Positions 15,468 to 23,239 of a DNA stretch of 64,000 nucleotides are shown here, in pieces (the stretch's first letter is position 1; each line of letters opens with the position of its first letter). Below the pieces are notes generated by a model. The model had not been told where the DNA came from, searched no databases, and saw only the letters and a program-made list of their open reading frames with translations. Origin of the DNA: Synechococcus sp. WH 8109 (lineage in GTDB: Bacteria > Cyanobacteriota > Cyanobacteriia > PCC-6307 > Cyanobiaceae); the NCBI RefSeq assembly GCF_000161795.2, contig NZ_CP006882.1, positions 186,001-250,000 of the forward strand, in the 5' to 3' direction. The position numbers were made by a program, and so were the translations under genes.

Positions 15468-15545
15468 CACAGAGGTCCGGTCACGGTTGAGCAGGGTTTG
15501 CCGCTCCAAGCCCGCCAGCATGGAGATCCCAACAGAAGGCTCGGC

Positions 15546-16245
15546 ATGACTTCTCGACTCTTGGGCGCTGCCAAGGTCGCCGTGGCCGGCCTCTTCGGGC
15601 TCAGTGTTGTGGCGCCATCCCCCTGTGGGCTGAGGAGCGCGTTCGCGATGGCACCCTGCTTCAGATCCAGGTGAATGAGCGTGGAACAAGCCGTAGCGAT
15701 CGCTTTCGCTTCTCGCTCGGGCTCGACGCTGAAGATCTCAGTAAGGACACTGCGCTGGGCGCCCTTAACGCCCGGTTGGCAGAGGGGCGTCAGGGCATTC
15801 AGCCGCTCGCCCTGGGTCAGCTCAGCATTCCTGCACCCCGCAGCTACGCCGTTGGGGAGGCGCGGCGGGATCACGACTGGAGCGGGCAAGCACCACCATC
15901 ACAGGGGAGGTGAGCCGTGACGATTACGACCCGCTGGTCCAGGCCGCCGGTCGCTTGTCGGGAGTGCGGCTGCAGGGAATGACGTCCTTGGCGTCCAGCG
16001 ACAGCCGTGCATCATTGGCTGATCAGTTGTCGAAACAAGCTCTTGAGATGTGGCGACGTCGCGCTAAGGCCACTGCAAGGGCTCTCGGCCTGCGCAAGGT
16101 GGAGTTGTTGCTGATTGACCAGCGGGGTTCGACCCATCGACCCATGCCGATGGTTGCGCGCATGGGGGAGGCAAGCTTCAGGCCTGGGGAGGCTCCCAAG
16201 CCCAGTCAGAACCTCACTCTCAAACTGAACTACTGCCTGCGTTGA
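15546..16245 (+). pseudogene. SIMPL (DUF541) domain protein with two frameshifts
   Basis: Three adjacent reading frames make one protein. Frame one from ATG 15546 gives a signal peptide (MTSRLLGAAKVAVAGLFG) up to the C5 tract at 15619-15623. Shifting by one base there continues as PLWAEERVRDG and on to about 15870. A second one-base shift near 15862-15876 leads to RLERASTTITGEV and the helix and strands ending LTLKLNYCLR at 16245. The last part matches SIMPL periplasmic proteins (ALEMWRRRAKATARALGL). Both breaks look like single-base losses, so this is either a decayed gene or an assembly with two indel errors. Confidence 0.7.
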
Positions 16246-16257
16246 CTGGCATCGGGA

Positions 16258-17830
16258 TCACTGTGGAGTGACCGTGGTGCGCCGCCATTCCTTCCAGGCC
16301 AGCCTTGGCGCTGACCAAAGGGTTGCCAGCACCAAGGGCGTGACAGGAACCGCAGCAATCACAATGAAGGCCTGAAGGGCGTTGATGGATGTGGGGTCGG
16401 TCAGGCTGGAGCCGACCCGGAGCAGCACCAGCGTGAGGCTGCCGATCATGAGAGCCCAGAAGAGGCGGAGTGGTGCTGGGGGTTCATCCCGGCCGCTCAC
16501 CACCATGGCTGCGGCGTAGCTCATCGAGTCGGCGCTGGTGCACATGAACAGCACCACCAGCAAAAGACCAATTGGAATCAGAAGTCCCGACAGCGGAAGC
16601 TGGCTGAGGATTGTCAGCAAGGTGGATGCGGCGGCATTGATGCCGTCGCTCTCAAGTGCACTGGTGATGTCCTTACCGTTCAGGTCTAGATACATCCCCG
16701 TTCCACCCACAAGCGTGAACCAGAGATTGGTGACCAGTGGGCAGAGAATGGCGACCGCAAGCACTAATTCCCGGATACTGCGTCCACGGCTCACCCCGGC
16801 GGTGAATAGGCCCATCAGGGGTGCGTAGCCCAGGAACCAGCCCCAGTAGAAGATCGTCCACCAGTTGAGCCATTCGCCGGTTTGGGCATTGCGAGGAAGG
16901 AGGGCCATCTGGGGGAGATGAACCACATTGCTCAGCAGTGCGCTGAAGAAGTGTTGGATCAACCAAAGTCCAGGGCCCAGAAGCAGCAGCCCAGCCGCCA
17001 GGGCGATGGTGAGCCACACGTTGAGCTCCGACAGCCATTTGATGCCTTTCTGAATGCCGCTGACGGTTGATGTGGCGAACACGGCAGTGAGTAGGACCAC
17101 TACGAGCGATTGCAGACCAGCACTGTTGGTGAGCCATGGCAGTTTGCCGGCAGCATCGCTGAGCTGAAGGGAGAGAAACCCAAGCGGCCCAACGGTGCCG
17201 GCGATGGCTGCGACCACTGAAAGCCCATCTGCGAGATCGCCGATGGGTCCGTCCACCCACCCCCTTGGCAGCACAGTGACCAAAAGGGCGCGGGGGCGAA
17301 GAGGTTCACCACGCCGCTCAAGAATCGAGAAGGTGATGGTGGTAGTGGTGGCGACCAGGGCCCAGGCGAGGAATCCCCAGTGCAGAAAACTCACGGCCAG
17401 GGCTGGATCCACGGCCGCAGCCGTTTTCCCCTCAACCCCTGCTGCTTGGAATAAAGGGGAAGGGGTGAGGTAGTGAAACAGCGGTTCGGCTGCCGACCAG
17501 AACACACCACCCCCCGCCAGCAGGGTGCAGATCAGCACTGCGCACCAATCGAAGAATTTGAGACTGGGCTTGCTATCCGCGCCTCCAAGCCTGAGTTTGC
17601 CGACTGGGCTGATGGCCAGGATCAGCGCGATCAGAAACAGCAGCACCACCATCCACTGCCAGACCCCGCCGAGGGCATCACTTATCACGGCTTTGCCGTT
17701 GTCGGTGAATTGCTTGGCCAGCGCCAGGTCGATGGCAGACACCAGCAGAAAGATCAGCAGGGGAGCAGCCCCCACCCAGAGGGGGGGGCTGTCGCCACCA
17801 GGAATGCTGGTTCGCGGGGGTGTCAGACAT
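16258..17830 (-). CDS. BCCT family betaine/choline transporter, frame broken near the start
   Basis: The protein has about 12 membrane helices and the BCCT core (FFDWCAVLICTLLAGGG, then the WTIFYWGWFLGYAPLMG motif of substrate-binding tryptophans). It should import betaine, choline or a related quaternary amine with Na+ or H+. The ATG at 17830 follows the oxidase stop by 18 bp and reads MSDTPANQHSWWRQ into a C8 tract (17781-17788 on the minus strand). The transporter frame PPLWVGAAPLLIF resumes only if one C is removed. The in-frame alternative from 17937 overlaps the upstream gene and looks like random coding, so the ATG plus frameshift reading is preferred. Confidence 0.8.
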
Positions 17831-17848
17831 CGGATGAGGGGTGAGGGG

Positions 17849-19039
17849 TCAGGCGCGGACGGCGGCGCGTTGGTGGCTCCAGCAGGAGAGATCCACCGCT
17901 GGTTGTTCGCTACTGGCGAGGCGTGCCAGGGAATCACCGATCAGGGGGGCGAACTTGAAGGCCTGGCCGGAGCCTCCTGCGAACAGGCTCAGCTTCGGGG
18001 TGAGCCGGTCCAGCACGAAGTTCACGTCGCTGGCCATGGAGTAGGGGCTGATCACGGTCTCCACACGCTCCTGCACACCCTCCAGTTCGTTGAACAGGAA
18101 GGTGTCAAGCAGCTCCACCAGGCGAGCGGGTGGCTCGGTAACCATGGCGTTGGGTTCGGCGACGCGCAGCTCCTGCGGAGCCCAGTCGATGCCCGCCTTG
18201 ATCCGTGGGCGGCCATCCGCCGTTTGGCTGAGGACGGGGAATCCGTAGTAGAGACCACCGTCATCGCCGCGTTCCTGCTGGAAGCAGAACCACTGGGGGT
18301 AGCGATCGGCCAGCGCCGGGTCGACCGTGTAGTGGGCCCATAGCATCGGCCACACCTCCAGTTTGGGTGAAAGGCCAAGAGGGGCCAGCAACAGCTGGCT
18401 CCAGATCCCGCAGGCCACTACCAGCTGTCCGGCGGCGATGTGTTCGCCGCTCTCCAGGGTGACGCCACCGCCATCGGCATCGAGGCCCGCCACTGGGCAG
18501 TGCTCGATCAGCTGATGGCCGGCATTGCGGGCGGTGTTGATCCAGTGGGCCACGACCCTGTCGCTACGCACGGCACCGGCGGTGGGCTCGAACAGTCCGG
18601 TGAAGCCCGGCTTCGGCTTCAGCGGGAAACGGGCCGCGATCTGTTCGGCGTTGAGGGCCTCATAGGGGATGCCCTGATCGTCCATGACCCGTCGGGCCCC
18701 AGGGATCGACCCCTCGATCGTCTCTTCATCCCAGCTTTCGCCGTAGAAGAGCAGGCCGTGGGTCTCCCGCAATTGCTGACTGGCGTGGTTTTCTTCCTCG
18801 CGCCAGAGGCGGTTGGCCTCCTGGGCAAGACGGCAGAGCACCGGGTCGGAATACATCTCCCGGAACATCCGGGTTTCGCCATAGCTACTGGCCTTGGCGT
18901 GGGCCAGGGTCTGGGCTTCCAGCAGCACCACATCGCGCACGCCGCGGCGGGCCAGGGATGCAGCGCAGCTGAGGCCGGCCATGCCGCCGCCAACGATCAC
19001 GACGGCTGCCCGGCTGGGCAGGGACGCGGGTGTGCTCAT
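17849..19039 (-). CDS. SolA-like FAD-dependent amine oxidase (sarcosine oxidase family)
   Basis: This 396-residue flavoprotein has the dinucleotide-binding VVIVGGGMAGLSCAASLARRG at 13-33, and the family's SYGETRMFR and GSGQAFKFAPLIG segments. Relatives oxidise N-methyl amino acids such as sarcosine or N-methyltryptophan, releasing formaldehyde and H2O2. At the position where monomeric sarcosine oxidase has its covalent-flavin cysteine, this protein reads SPYSMASD, so the flavin may be held non-covalently. Its ATGA start overlaps the dehydrogenase stop by 4 nt. The substrate is unknown, and the operon context suggests an N-methylated amino acid. Confidence 0.82.
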   Translation of the reverse strand: MSTPASLPSRAAVVIVGGGMAGLSCAASLARRGVRDVVLLEAQTLAHAKASSYGETRMFREMYSDPVLCRLAQEANRLWREEENHASQQLRETHGLLFYGESWDEETIEGSIPGARRVMDDQGIPYEALNAEQIAARFPLKPKPGFTGLFEPTAGAVRSDRVVAHWINTARNAGHQLIEHCPVAGLDADGGGVTLESGEHIAAGQLVVACGIWSQLLLAPLGLSPKLEVWPMLWAHYTVDPALADRYPQWFCFQQERGDDGGLYYGFPVLSQTADGRPRIKAGIDWAPQELRVAEPNAMVTEPPARLVELLDTFLFNELEGVQERVETVISPYSMASDVNFVLDRLTPKLSLFAGGSGQAFKFAPLIGDSLARLASSEQPAVDLSCWSHQRAAVRA

Positions 19040-20091
19040 TCGCTTTCTCCAAAGCTGAGGCCGATGGGGTCGGTGGAGGGTGTTGCGGCCACCTCCTCAA
19101 GGGCTGCACCGACTGACAAGCCTTGTTCGCGCTGATTCAGATACTCGCTGGCCCGTCGGCGCACCTCATCGCGAACGAACGCATAGACGTCCTTGGCACC
19201 AGCGTCTTTCCAGGCGTCGGGGGAGAACCGCTCGATTGAATCGGCGATCACAGCTCCTGCATTCACCAGGGGGTCCGGTAGCACTTGCACACCGCGGCGA
19301 CGCAGCTCATCCGCCAATTGGGGTTGCTGGAAGGGGGCATTGGCGGCAGGCACCACGGCTGGGGTTTTCAGCGCCGTCGCCATTTCGGCGTTGATCAACC
19401 CTGAGATCGAGCAGGGCAGCAGCAGGTCGAGGTTCAGTTCCCACCAGGCGCAGCTCTTAGGCAGCGGCGTCGCGCCGGGAAAACTGGCTTTCTCGCGGTC
19501 CAGATCCACGGTGAACACGGTCCAACCGTGCTCGACGAGATGGCGGGCAACGGTGCCACCAACGGCACCGCAGCCGTGCACGAGGGCCCGGCCAGGGCGG
19601 GCGTCGTTGAGGTCCTTGTCCAGAACGGCCTCCACAGCACCGAGGGTGCCGTGGGCGGTGGCGGCACTGGCGTCCACAGGGCTGCCGACCGCCGCCAGCA
19701 CATGGGGGGTGAGCGCCGTCAGACGCTCCATGTCCTCCAGACTGGTGTTGAGATCGCAGCCGGTGATCATGGCGCCGTCAAGTGACTCCAGCAGCTCGGC
19801 GGTGACGCTGATCAGCTCATCCTTGACGGCATCGGGTTCAGCGGCCCGGGCAACGATCTTGCCGCCGGCGAAACCGGTGCCGTAAAGATCGTGCTTGTGG
19901 GTCATCAACCCCGCCAGCCGTTGGCCGTCTGCGATGCAGGCCTCATCGCTCGGGTAATTGAGCACACGCAGGCCTCCGTTGGCGGGACGCTTGGCATCGG
20001 TGTCTTCCGCCACCACGAACACCGAGAGGTGGTCGGAGACGTGTTCCGCCAGCACCGACACGGTCGGCGCGGTTTTCTTGCCGCTGCTCAT
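19036..20091 (-). CDS. Glu/Leu/Phe/Val-type amino acid dehydrogenase
   Basis: The 351-residue protein matches leucine/phenylalanine/valine dehydrogenases. It keeps both active-site lysines (LMTHKHDL for substrate carboxylate, TGFAGGKIV for catalysis), the CDLNTSLEDM aspartate, the NAD site VHGCGAVGG and the VNAGAVIADSIE segment. It interconverts an amino acid with its 2-oxo acid using NAD(H). ATG 20091 shares one base with the upstream methyltransferase stop (TGATG). Such enzymes are unusual in phototrophs, and placement between a methyltransferase and an amine oxidase suggests a dedicated pathway. Confidence 0.85.
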   Translation of the reverse strand: MSSGKKTAPTVSVLAEHVSDHLSVFVVAEDTDAKRPANGGLRVLNYPSDEACIADGQRLAGLMTHKHDLYGTGFAGGKIVARAAEPDAVKDELISVTAELLESLDGAMITGCDLNTSLEDMERLTALTPHVLAAVGSPVDASAATAHGTLGAVEAVLDKDLNDARPGRALVHGCGAVGGTVARHLVEHGWTVFTVDLDREKASFPGATPLPKSCAWWELNLDLLLPCSISGLINAEMATALKTPAVVPAANAPFQQPQLADELRRRGVQVLPDPLVNAGAVIADSIERFSPDAWKDAGAKDVYAFVRDEVRRRASEYLNQREQGLSVGAALEEVAATPSTDPIGLSFGESE

Positions 20092-21128
20092 CAGGCCACC
20101 TTCTCCATCATCTGGTGGTGTTCGACGTAGTCGAGGCTCCATTCGCTGGGAGCTTCGGCGATGCGTTGCTGCAGCCGCTTGAACACCGTGTCTGCTGCGG
20201 TGTTGCCGGCAGCACTGGCAAAGCTGTGGCGGCTCCAGCTGCGGATCGTCGCCATCAATCCGGCGGCGAAAGTAGCCGTGTCACCGCTCTCCTTCCAGCG
20301 GCGACGGTAAGGGCACTTCACGTAAACGGTGCGCTCGTCCACCAGCCGCAGGCCATTGCGGTACGCGGCGCTGCTCTCGTCCTTCAGCGGAGCCATGAAC
20401 TCCTCGGGGGACTTGTAGAAGTTCAGAACCGTGCCTTGTTGATACTGCTCCTGGCTGATCAGGCCTTCCTCGGCCATGCTCCGCCAGATCTGGTGTAGCT
20501 GGTCGTGCACGTTGCGGGTTTCGTTGCCGTTGTGGCCGAGATAAAGCCCTGCTTCATCACGGGAGAGGTTCACCGTCAGCAGGCGGCCGCCCACCTTCAG
20601 TTCGCGGCTGCGCAGCTCGAGGATGTGGTGCCAGTCCTTCATCGCCTGGGCGGTGAAGCGCTGAAGTGCGTCGGCATCACCGGAGGCCAGCACATGGGTG
20701 TGGTTGTTCAGGGGGCCGGGGGAGGCGCTCAGCCAGTGCATGGCCGTGGCGGAAAAACCGAAGCTCACCGAGTTCGGAGCCACGGAGGGCTCGTAGAAGC
20801 TGCGGGCACTCACCAGCACCGTTGGCTTCGGATCCCGGGGGATCTGCAGGGCCAGGTTGTCGGCCAAAGCAATGTTGTCGTTGCTCGGTAGGTCGTTGCC
20901 GATCAACGTCAGGTGGGCCTTGGGTTGGTTGGCATGCAGGCGATCCAGCACCTGGTTCCAGAGCCCAACGGCGGTTCCACCGTCGGCAGCTCCGTAATCG
21001 ATCAGAACATGGCTGTCAGCGACAGCCAGTTGATTCACACAAGTCAGGGCCCAGTCCGAGGCGGCTTCGATGCACAGAAGAGCGCCCTCGGTCTGCGCGC
21101 TGTAACCCGTGGTCATGGCGATGGCCAT
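20091..21128 (-). CDS. SABATH-type SAM-dependent carboxyl methyltransferase
   Basis: This 345-residue protein has the layout of plant SABATH enzymes (salicylate, jasmonate and caffeine methyltransferases). A SAM-binding DYGAADGGTAVGLW is followed by LIGNDLPSND, then the diagnostic SFYEPSVAPNSVSFGF...MHWLSASP block that lines the acceptor pocket, and later GGRLLTVNL. SABATH members methylate carboxylates or ring nitrogens of small acids. It is first in the four-gene operon and coupled to the dehydrogenase by TGATG. The acceptor cannot be predicted. ATG 21128 is used; ATG 21116 is also possible. Confidence 0.82.
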   Translation of the reverse strand: MAIAMTTGYSAQTEGALLCIEAASDWALTCVNQLAVADSHVLIDYGAADGGTAVGLWNQVLDRLHANQPKAHLTLIGNDLPSNDNIALADNLALQIPRDPKPTVLVSARSFYEPSVAPNSVSFGFSATAMHWLSASPGPLNNHTHVLASGDADALQRFTAQAMKDWHHILELRSRELKVGGRLLTVNLSRDEAGLYLGHNGNETRNVHDQLHQIWRSMAEEGLISQEQYQQGTVLNFYKSPEEFMAPLKDESSAAYRNGLRLVDERTVYVKCPYRRRWKESGDTATFAAGLMATIRSWSRHSFASAAGNTAADTVFKRLQQRIAEAPSEWSLDYVEHHQMMEKVA

Positions 21129-21197
21129 GGACCTCGTCAGCGGCAGGCTTCACCGTACAGACCATGCCCCGAGGACCTTTGTATCCGTGGTTCTTCT

Positions 21198-21779
21198 TCA
21201 GCTTGCTTCGAGCAACTGGCGCAACTTGGGTTCCAGAAGGCTGAAGGCCTTGCCGCGGTGGCCGTGCTGCTTTTTCTCCGCCAAAGGCATTTCGGCGAAG
21301 GTGCGGCCGGTTCCAGCGACTTCAAAGATCGGGTCGTAGCCGAAACCCTGATCTCCCCGGGGTGAGGCCGTGATCAAGCCGTCGCAGCGGCCTTCCACCT
21401 CCAGCAGGATCGTGCCGTCCGCAGCGGCAATGCACAGTGCGGCACAGAAATAGGCCTGGCGTTGATCTGAGCCGTTCAGGGCCTTCAGCAGCCGGGCAAT
21501 GCGTTCCGGGTCGGTGGGCGCGTAGCGGGCGGAGTGAACCCCCGGCGCACCATTGAGGGCATCCACACTCAGGCCTGAATCGTCGGCCAAGGCCCATTCC
21601 CCTATGGCGGCGGCAACCGCTTGAGCCTTGAGCCGGGCATTGGCGGCAAAGGTGGTGCCCGTCTCCTCCACCTCTAAGCCTTCTGGCTGGGGTTGCACGC
21701 TGACGGGCAGGGCCCGTAGCAGACCCTGGAATTCACGAATCTTGCCAGCGTTGCCGCTCGCGATCACAAGGGTCTTCAT
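21198..21779 (-). CDS. rdgB: XTP/dITP diphosphatase (non-canonical purine NTPase)
   Basis: RdgB/HAM1 hydrolyses deaminated purine triphosphates to keep them out of nucleic acids. The 193-residue protein has the family start TLVIASGNAGKIREFQ, the WALADDSGLSVDALNG metal site and GYDPIFEVAGTGRTFAE. Its ATG overlaps the stop of the upstream phosphohexomutase gene by 4 nt, so the two are coupled. Confidence 0.94.
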   Translation of the reverse strand: MKTLVIASGNAGKIREFQGLLRALPVSVQPQPEGLEVEETGTTFAANARLKAQAVAAAIGEWALADDSGLSVDALNGAPGVHSARYAPTDPERIARLLKALNGSDQRQAYFCAALCIAAADGTILLEVEGRCDGLITASPRGDQGFGYDPIFEVAGTGRTFAEMPLAEKKQHGHRGKAFSLLEPKLRQLLEAS

Positions 21780-23239
21780 GTGGCCTCCGCAAACTGTCGG
21801 GCCCAGGTGAGCACCTCGTTCACCCGCTCGGCATCCGGCCCTTCGCAGTAGAGCCGCAGCAGCGGTTCCGTGCCGGAGAAGCGCAGCATCAGCCAGTGGT
21901 TCGGTCCCATCCTCATTTTGATCCCGTCGGTGCTGATCACCTCCAGTACTTCTGCGCCGGCAACGGTTGAGGGCGTGCTCTGGTCCAGCAGCGTCTCGAG
22001 CCGTCGGCGTGCCTCCATGTCGGCCAGGCGCAGGTCGAGTCGGTCGTAGTGACTGCTGCCTCCGTGTTGTTGCTGGAGTGCATCAAGACGCGCGCCCAGG
22101 GGTTGCTTTCCTTCCACCAGGGCTTCCAGCACCAGCATCGCCGCGAACAGGGCGTCCCGCTCGGGCAGGTGCATGCCGAAGCCCACACCGCCGGATTCTT
22201 CGCCGCCAATCAGCACATCCCCGGCCAGCATCTCTGCGGCGATGTACTTGAAGCCCACCGCGAGCTCCAGAACCTTGCGTCCTTGGGCCTCCGCCACCAG
22301 TCGCATCAGATCCGAGCCGCTCACGGTCTTAACCACGGCACCCGGCAGCTGGCGGGCTCGGGCCAGGTGATCGATCAACAGGGGCATCAGCAGCTGGGTG
22401 CTGCAGAACCGGCCGTTTTCATCCACGGCCGCGATGCGGTCACCATCGCCGTCGAACACCAATCCCACCGCAGGAGTTCCGGCGGCCGTTGAGGCTTTCA
22501 CGGCCGCGATTAACGCCCCGAGGTAGCGCGCCAGGGGTTCCGGCGGATGACCGCCAAACAATGGATCACGTTCGCTGCGGATTTCCTCCACGACGCCAGC
22601 GGCTTCAGGGCCGAGCAGCTCCGTCACACAGCCGGCGGCTGATCCATGCATCGGATCGACGATCACCTTGAGGTTGATGGCCTTGAGGCCATCAACCAGG
22701 GCACTGAGGTCCAACTTGCGGCGCAGCCCTTCCAGATGCTCGTCGCGCCCATCAAACCGGGGGACTTCCGCCTTGATCGGTGCCGTGATGCCGCCGGCGG
22801 CCAGACGTCGTTCGACTGCGGCTGTGAAGTCTCCCTCGACCGATCCACCGAAGGGCCCTTTGATCTTCAGCCCCAGCCATTCCGGTGGGTTGTGACTGGC
22901 GGTGATCACCAACGCTCCCAGGGCTTTGCGCTCCACTACGGCCCAGCTGCAGGCCGGCGTGGGCACAGCGGTGTCGGTAAGCAGGGGTTCCAGTTCACAA
23001 CCCCGCACAGCGGCCGCGATGGCTTCCGCCAGTTCTGGAGCCAAAAAGCGCCGGTCGTAACCGATCACCACCGTTCGGCTGTTGAGACCTTCGGGGGCGC
23101 GATGGGCGAGCTCCTGAGCCGCGGCAGCGGCAACGGGCAACAACCGCTCAACTGTGATGTCGACGCCGGTGATCCCGCGCCAGCCATCGGTGCCGAACTT
23201 GATCGGAGCTGGACTAAAAGGGAGGGGAGCCGATGCCAT
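21776..23239 (-). CDS. Phosphoglucomutase/phosphomannomutase
   Basis: This 487-residue alpha-D-phosphohexomutase has the opening FGTDGWRG, the phosphoserine loop TASHNPPEW, the metal loop DGDGDR and the C-terminal phosphate-binding RFSGTEPLLRLY. It interconverts hexose 1- and 6-phosphates, feeding glycogen and sugar-nucleotide synthesis. Preference for glucose or mannose cannot be set from motifs alone. It is the first gene of a pair with rdgB and diverges from the nuclease gene at 23293. Confidence 0.9.
   Translation of the reverse strand: MASAPLPFSPAPIKFGTDGWRGITGVDITVERLLPVAAAAAQELAHRAPEGLNSRTVVIGYDRRFLAPELAEAIAAAVRGCELEPLLTDTAVPTPACSWAVVERKALGALVITASHNPPEWLGLKIKGPFGGSVEGDFTAAVERRLAAGGITAPIKAEVPRFDGRDEHLEGLRRKLDLSALVDGLKAINLKVIVDPMHGSAAGCVTELLGPEAAGVVEEIRSERDPLFGGHPPEPLARYLGALIAAVKASTAAGTPAVGLVFDGDGDRIAAVDENGRFCSTQLLMPLLIDHLARARQLPGAVVKTVSGSDLMRLVAEAQGRKVLELAVGFKYIAAEMLAGDVLIGGEESGGVGFGMHLPERDALFAAMLVLEALVEGKQPLGARLDALQQQHGGSSHYDRLDLRLADMEARRRLETLLDQSTPSTVAGAEVLEVISTDGIKMRMGPNHWLMLRFSGTEPLLRLYCEGPDAERVNEVLTWARQFAEAT

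Follow-up and report, generated by a model that had tools for sequence, protein, structure and literature searches.

Which metabolite is served by a row of four closely packed genes in the cyanobacterium Synechococcus sp. WH 8109? The genes occupy positions 16258-21128 of a 64,000-nt stretch of its genome (hereafter the window); they all lie on the minus strand, and by their Pfam matches all four are real. An initial annotation read them as a SABATH methyltransferase, an amino acid dehydrogenase, a SolA-like N-demethylating oxidase and a BCCT transporter, and proposed a route to make, break down or salvage a methylated amino acid. Our analysis upholds the making, with a single betaine, homarine (N-methylpicolinate), as the probable product; breakdown or salvage by demethylation is not supported, because the oxidase is NikD-like. 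We estimate the probability that the operon makes homarine from lysine at roughly 0.74. In the first step, L-lysine would be oxidatively deaminated at its alpha carbon by the dehydrogenase, a member of the ELFV (Glu/Leu/Phe/Val) family, and the resulting 2-keto-6-aminocaproate would close to piperideine-2-carboxylate. The NikD-like flavoenzyme would then aromatise the ring to picolinate, removing four electrons in two O2-dependent turns. Finally, the SABATH enzyme would use S-adenosylmethionine (SAM) to methylate the ring nitrogen, yielding homarine, a betaine and compatible solute, and the BCCT carrier would recapture leaked or environmental homarine. Lysine deamination by a dehydrogenase linked to nicotinamide adenine dinucleotide (NAD) is uphill, so cyclisation and irreversible aromatisation would draw the first step on; the use of SAM as methyl donor indicates that the route would be biosynthetic. 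What is observed are the gene families, the operon structure, the joint presence and absence of the genes, and the NikD-type and altered leucine-dehydrogenase-type residues; from these we infer every reaction of this scheme, which atom is methylated and what the transporter carries.

The four genes form a conserved unit, as had been proposed. In the window, the stop codon of the methyltransferase gene (20091..21128) and the start codon of the dehydrogenase gene (19036..20091) share 1 nt, and the dehydrogenase stop and the start of the oxidase gene (17849..19039) share 4 nt, in agreement with the overlaps first described. These overlaps are conserved across 36 loci (the gene was found in 39 loci, and L050, L068 and L070, with split hits, were dropped). 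The methyltransferase-dehydrogenase junction is a 1-nt overlap in 30 of the 36 loci and a 4-nt overlap in the other 6; the dehydrogenase-oxidase junction is a 4-nt overlap in 35/36 and a 4-nt gap in the remaining one. A family sample of 251 genomes was searched for the methyltransferase at E <= 0.001, which gave 43 matches, 40 of them operon-type (G102, G122 and G194 hold weak matches only), and for the other three proteins at E <= 1e-30, which leaves out remote paralogues. The operon-type methyltransferase is thus present in 40/251 genomes, the dehydrogenase in 41, the oxidase in 40 and the BCCT carrier in 39. These are the same genomes, with two exceptions: G030 has an extra dehydrogenase, and G229 carries the enzymes, and its genome gives no match to BCCT at that threshold. 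The BCCT gene was found solely in genomes with the enzymes. By these counts, the co-occurrence of the four-gene set is far beyond chance.

The gene order is equally stable. Forty stretches were fetched, and all 38 Synechococcus-type loci among them have the order methyltransferase-dehydrogenase-oxidase-BCCT; the other two are a Prochlorococcus locus without BCCT and a methyltransferase paralogue without partners. Among 43 named loci, 30 carry the three enzymes in order (29 titled Synechococcus and one titled 'Cyanobacteria bacterium'), and 29 of these 30 also carry BCCT; contig ends fall inside the oxidase in L092, inside BCCT in L073 and inside the methyltransferase in L113. The enzyme triplet also occurs in some Prochlorococcus: all 12 loci, including those of MIT 9401, MIT 9201, HNLC1 and HNLC2, have the three enzymes, and the stretch examined contains nothing that matches BCCT at E <= 1e-8, which suggests that the enzymes can do without import. 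The genes were therefore not found scattered in relatives. A search of 386 genomes of the phylum returned 20 matches, all within the picocyanobacterial family, and within the genus the methyltransferase is present in 28/34 genomes (17/19 among those at least 90% complete). In G216, one of the genomes of the genus that lack it, the DNA aligns with the window on both sides and 16246-21196 is missing, a single block that takes in all four genes and lies between a Ham1-family gene and a DUF541 (SIMPL) gene.

A conserved leader lies 5' of the methyltransferase gene (21129..21166, minus strand; TGTACGGTG ... GCTGACGAGGTC ... ATG) and may hold a promoter -10 element and a ribosome-binding region. When the window and 36 other leaders were set side by side, it was conserved in most Synechococcus-type loci and weaker in L052, L054, L057, L059, L063 and L065-L067; none of the 8 Prochlorococcus leaders examined shows it. 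An Rfam scan of 15500-21900 gave two matches, both under their gathering scores, and the leader matches no Rfam family at its gathering score. The conservation of this element points to a promoter belonging to the operon itself.

The oxidase (396 amino acids; flavin adenine dinucleotide (FAD) oxidoreductase PF01266, E 3.7e-45) had been taken for a SolA-like N-demethylase, a reading that its scores and two active-site signatures do not support. With a single sequence as query, its best solved relative is NikD (2oln; E 1.4e-37, 132.6 bits, with the best chain other than NikD reaching 121.3), and in a profile search NikD scores E 1.2e-42 and 149.4 bits against 132.9 for the best sarcosine oxidase. 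Ten orthologues were aligned in MAFFT with NikD and eight comparators, of which six are SolA-type proteins encoded on plasmids and two are sarcosine oxidases. The four-residue insertion of NikD that contains Glu101, and Asp276, both of which we take to be active-site residues, occur in 10/10 orthologues and in none of the eight comparators. One comparator has Glu at position 276, and the comparator 1l9c may be a mutant chain at this position. Arg53 and Lys358 are common to the orthologues, NikD and all comparators. The part of PubMed Central (PMC) article PMC4021061 used here states that, in nikkomycin synthesis, picolinic acid is formed from lysine-derived piperideine-2-carboxylate by an enzyme of the sarcosine-oxidase type. 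The oxidase is therefore best described as NikD-like and predicted to form picolinate, not as a plain SolA demethylase.

These residues also bear on the possibility that the operon serves to turn over or salvage imported betaines or an N-methyl amino acid; in this case the oxidase would remove the methyl group and the dehydrogenase would deaminate the product. The oxidase does belong to the sarcosine/N-methyltryptophan oxidase superfamily, its best NCBIfam model being N-methyl-L-tryptophan oxidase (189.3 bits, under the cut-off of 257), and a BCCT carrier adjoins the enzymes. However, NikD-type residues stand in place of those of a demethylase, a SAM-consuming methyltransferase would make a degradative route wasteful, and the enzymes occur without a BCCT match in the Prochlorococcus loci and in G229. 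We regard such salvage as decidedly unlikely.

The dehydrogenase (351 amino acids from the ATG at 20091; PF00208 E 2.3e-16, PF02812 E 1.8e-6) is the predicted source of piperideine-2-carboxylate, as an NAD-dependent L-lysine alpha-dehydrogenase. Its AlphaFold model (pLDDT 86.3) has the two-domain fold and matches leucine, phenylalanine and tryptophan dehydrogenases in Foldseek, the Leu and Phe enzymes best, with TM scores by query length of 0.70-0.80 among the matches listed. The catalytic residues Lys68, Lys80 and Asp115 of leucine dehydrogenase are kept in 11/11 sequences. In the same 11, including the lone copy of G030, position 40 (Leu in leucine dehydrogenase) is Asn and position 294 (Val) is Asp; the hydrophobic Leu40/Val294 pair of leucine dehydrogenase proper was found in none of them. 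Position 113 carries Gly, the residue found there in the Phe and Trp enzymes, and Ala replaces Asn262. The part of PMC2723916 used here describes L40, A113, V291 and V294 of leucine dehydrogenase as involved in specificity, and positions 40 and 294 as crucial for glutamate dehydrogenase. An Asp at the side-chain end of the pocket suggests that a cationic side chain fits there, lysine best.

Such a pocket would suit any cationic side chain, and NikD-type residues could suit other cyclic imino acids. The dehydrogenase might thus act on ornithine or another cationic amino acid, and the oxidase might aromatise a different cyclic imine, so that another N-methylated heteroaromatic acid would be made. 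Against this, the NikD-type substrate described in the part of PMC4021061 cited above is a six-membered ring, and the abundant Synechococcus product is homarine, with no five-ring product mentioned in the parts of the papers used here. A different ring is thus unlikely, and we retain lysine and picolinate as the predicted substrate and intermediate.

The methyltransferase (345 amino acids) is the predicted picolinate N-methyltransferase, or homarine synthase. Its SABATH assignment, made in the initial annotation, is borne out: PF03492 matches with E 4.7e-24 and 85.6 bits (cut-off 29.8), its solved relatives are SABATH-type enzymes, and no other family emerged. Across 10 orthologues, the motifs DYGAADGGTA, NDLPSND, SFYE and HWLS vary little or not at all; we take them to be those of SAM binding and of the SABATH core. 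Identity to the window protein is 85-97% in 14 other genomes of the genus with an unsplit copy and 51-55% in Prochlorococcus, and the single PF03492 match of the window genome sits in the operon. The solved N-methyltransferases 2efj, 2eg5, 6lyi and 6lyh are among the relatives found with its profile; N- or xanthosine/xanthine methyltransferase chains score E 3.4e-6 to 2.6e-4, and IpCS3 scores 1.6e-7. An AlphaFold model built from 10 sequences (pLDDT 59.7) was too poor for pocket analysis.

The fourth gene encodes a BCCT-family betaine transporter (body 16258..17832; PF02028 E 8.6e-127, 424 bits against a curated cut-off of 27), so the family named in the initial annotation holds. It is the single BCCT match in the window genome (2,111,515 bp). 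Its predicted role is uptake or recapture of homarine. Against the glycine-betaine equivalog model it scores 296.9 bits, under the cut-off of 650. Plain uptake of glycine betaine or dimethylsulfoniopropionate (as in the parts of PMC13310141 and PMC4390839 used here) was considered and set aside, as the gene occurs only alongside the three enzymes in the family sample; a side activity of this kind may remain.

Homarine is a plausible product in view of published measurements. The portion of PMC8269262 used here reports homarine concentrations of up to 400 mM in Synechococcus WH8102 and 4-5 mM in WH7803, regards homarine as a likely compatible solute, and states that characterised biosynthetic pathways are lacking; the portion of PMC8269247 used here likewise points to missing genetic information on how homarine is made and broken down. 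Our search of the open-access PMC literature (no preprints) found no genes named for homarine biosynthesis, and an earlier report in subscription journals is possible. WH7803 (L077) carries all four operon genes; the operon is thus present in a strain in which homarine was measured (PMC8269262, same portion). For WH8102, the part of PMC2874817 used here places the BCCT gene SYNW0229 within SYNW0229-0233, a predicted operon whose gene count and neighbourhood fit BCCT-oxidase-dehydrogenase-methyltransferase-rdgB. The same part of that paper reads SYNW0229 as BetT and the other four genes as possible transporter subunits. It places glycine-betaine synthesis at SYNW1913-1914, and names ProVWX and SYNW2494 for uptake as well, which would leave the operon free for another solute.

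Several observations weigh against a lysine-to-homarine operon. At the level of the metabolite, the part of PMC8269262 used here gives quinolinate as the origin of homarine, after a 1975 Penaeus study and with the decarboxylase uncharacterised, and reports homarine also in four of six diatoms and in one Emiliania huxleyi strain. WH7803 holds about 100 times less homarine than WH8102, a difference that the operon leaves unexplained, and carriage of the operon by WH8102, which is not among our named loci, rests on the published operon prediction. Quinolinate decarboxylation followed by N-methylation could therefore supply the homarine of Synechococcus, and the operon could make something else. 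This would leave the juxtaposition of a NikD-like oxidase, a SABATH methyltransferase and a betaine-family carrier as a coincidence, and we consider it very unlikely. At the level of the genes, G030 has the dehydrogenase (L130:8549-9673, 462.8 bits) without partner enzymes (no methyltransferase match at E <= 0.001 and no oxidase match at E <= 1e-30).

Other points on this side concern the enzymes themselves. In the oxidase, Cys321 of NikD, which we take to be the site of covalent flavin attachment, is Ser and Trp355 is Gln in 10/10 orthologues; because this Cys is absent, we call the protein NikD-like, not NikD. The single-sequence match agrees with MAFFT on Asp276, and the profile alignment slides by two residues there. 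Lysine alpha-dehydrogenation would be a specificity new to the ELFV family, and the placement of its Asp varies with the alignment: against 8gxd, HMMER opens a two-residue gap just before the Asp and takes it off position 294, whereas against 6acf HMMER aligns it without a gap, and MAFFT has its gap after the Asp, which puts the residue on 294. In the AlphaFold model, the region near 294 is one helix (279-289). The nearest solved relative of the methyltransferase is a fatty-acid O-methyltransferase, and in the profile search solved O-methyltransferases (E 1.3e-21 for 5f2k) outscore the N-methyltransferases (about 1e-5). This would favour a methyl ester, such as methyl picolinate, serving as a volatile or signal in place of a betaine. 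However, Ala16, invariant in 10/10 orthologues, aligns with a Gln of the plant carboxyl methyltransferase 8wwq that we take to bind the substrate carboxylate in such enzymes; this argues against ester formation, not against SABATH membership. For N-methylation, this one aligned position is weak evidence, and the logic of the product weighs more. A betaine-family carrier stands alongside the methyltransferase in 39/40 genomes, and homarine is abundant. Ester formation is thus very improbable indeed, and N-methylation to homarine is preferred.

The proposed route resembles known systems in its parts. In the picolinate branch of nikkomycin synthesis, lysine 2-aminotransferase (NikC/SanL) and then NikD lead from lysine through piperideine-2-carboxylate to picolinate (PMC4021061, part cited), as predicted here, and the operon oxidase has the Glu101 insertion and Asp276 of NikD. 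The operon differs in having a dehydrogenase in place of the aminotransferase, an oxidase that lacks the covalent-flavin Cys, and a cyanobacterial host; picolinate is activated with coenzyme A in the nikkomycin branch, whereas it would be N-methylated here. Plant caffeine-type N-methyltransferases belong to the same SABATH family, of which the operon enzyme is a distant bacterial branch. Trigonelline synthase, another plant SABATH enzyme, methylates the ring nitrogen of nicotinate; the operon enzyme would likewise act on the ring nitrogen of a pyridine carboxylate, with the 2-carboxylate isomer as acceptor. The dehydrogenase shares its fold and Lys68, Lys80 and Asp115 with Leu, Phe and Trp (ScyB) dehydrogenases and differs from them at positions 40 (Asn), 294 (Asp) and 262 (Ala); its score against the ScyB family model is 101.3 bits, far under the cut-off of 600. 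The glycine-betaine system of WH8102 (GsmT/SdmT and ProVWX; PMC2874817, part cited) also joins SAM-dependent betaine synthesis to dedicated transport, with other genes and another precursor. The best reading is therefore a new assembly of enzyme types already known, of which the dehydrogenase, at least, would have altered its specificity. We think it reasonably probable that marine picocyanobacteria possess a lysine-to-homarine pathway composed of an alpha-specific ELFV lysine dehydrogenase, a NikD-like oxidase with non-covalent flavin, a SABATH picolinate N-methyltransferase and a homarine-specific BCCT carrier.

If this is true, these are genes for one of the most abundant metabolites of the ocean, so far assumed to derive from quinolinate. 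Along a transect in the North Pacific, homarine made up as much as 3% of particulate carbon; its share in WH8102 is estimated at 4.8%, and an extrapolation, given with caveats, puts homarine at up to 0.5-1% of net primary production in the ocean (PMC8269262, part used here). Homarine production would then be predicted in some Prochlorococcus (MIT 9401, MIT 9201, HNLC1 and HNLC2), and marker genes would let surveys locate homarine makers, and the places and times of its production. The pathway would connect lysine metabolism in the open ocean with a picolinate enzyme of the antibiotic type and with a SABATH methyltransferase.

The start of the BCCT gene needs correction. An ATG 18 nt past the oxidase stop had been given as its start codon; in the assembly, this ATG and the BCCT body are in different frames, and the frame of the body is open from a GTG at 17937 and contains internal GTG codons. 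An in-frame ATG lies 18-36 nt past the oxidase stop in 9/9 relatives compared. A run of C near the start (window 17770-17830) has 8 C in the window and 7 in six of these nine (L032-L035, L038 and L039); in L040, L043 and L052 the stretch is built differently. The apparent N-terminal frameshift in the window may thus be specific to the strain, a phase-variable tract or an assembly error. The adjoining SIMPL/DUF541 gene (window 15671-16245) also looks broken, as it encodes a 111-amino-acid piece covering profile positions 100-185 of 205; the G216 version has 244 amino acids.

In three Synechococcus-type genomes, an operon gene is split between two frames (the methyltransferase in L068 and L070, the oxidase in L050); these may be natural knock-outs or sequencing errors. 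G222 has a second SABATH-type gene (L071:7974-9065), 23% identical and without partner genes in a 12-kb stretch. Among viral contigs, 35 stretches matched a pattern and none encoded a relative of the methyltransferase. Plasmids gave three distant methyltransferase matches (Rhizobium sp. CB3171, Novosphingobium and Sinorhizobium). None of the 14 features listed for the Novosphingobium match is named as a partner gene. The best plasmid match (30.9%), in Rhizobium sp. CB3171, was judged to belong to a different cluster, since the flavoenzyme there barely matches the operon oxidase (E 0.054). This cluster (L134:9226-14339) comprises a SABATH methyltransferase, a glycine-oxidase-like flavoenzyme, a protein with B12-binding and radical-SAM matches below cut-off, and a membrane-like open reading frame, and is surrounded by transposases and recombinases.

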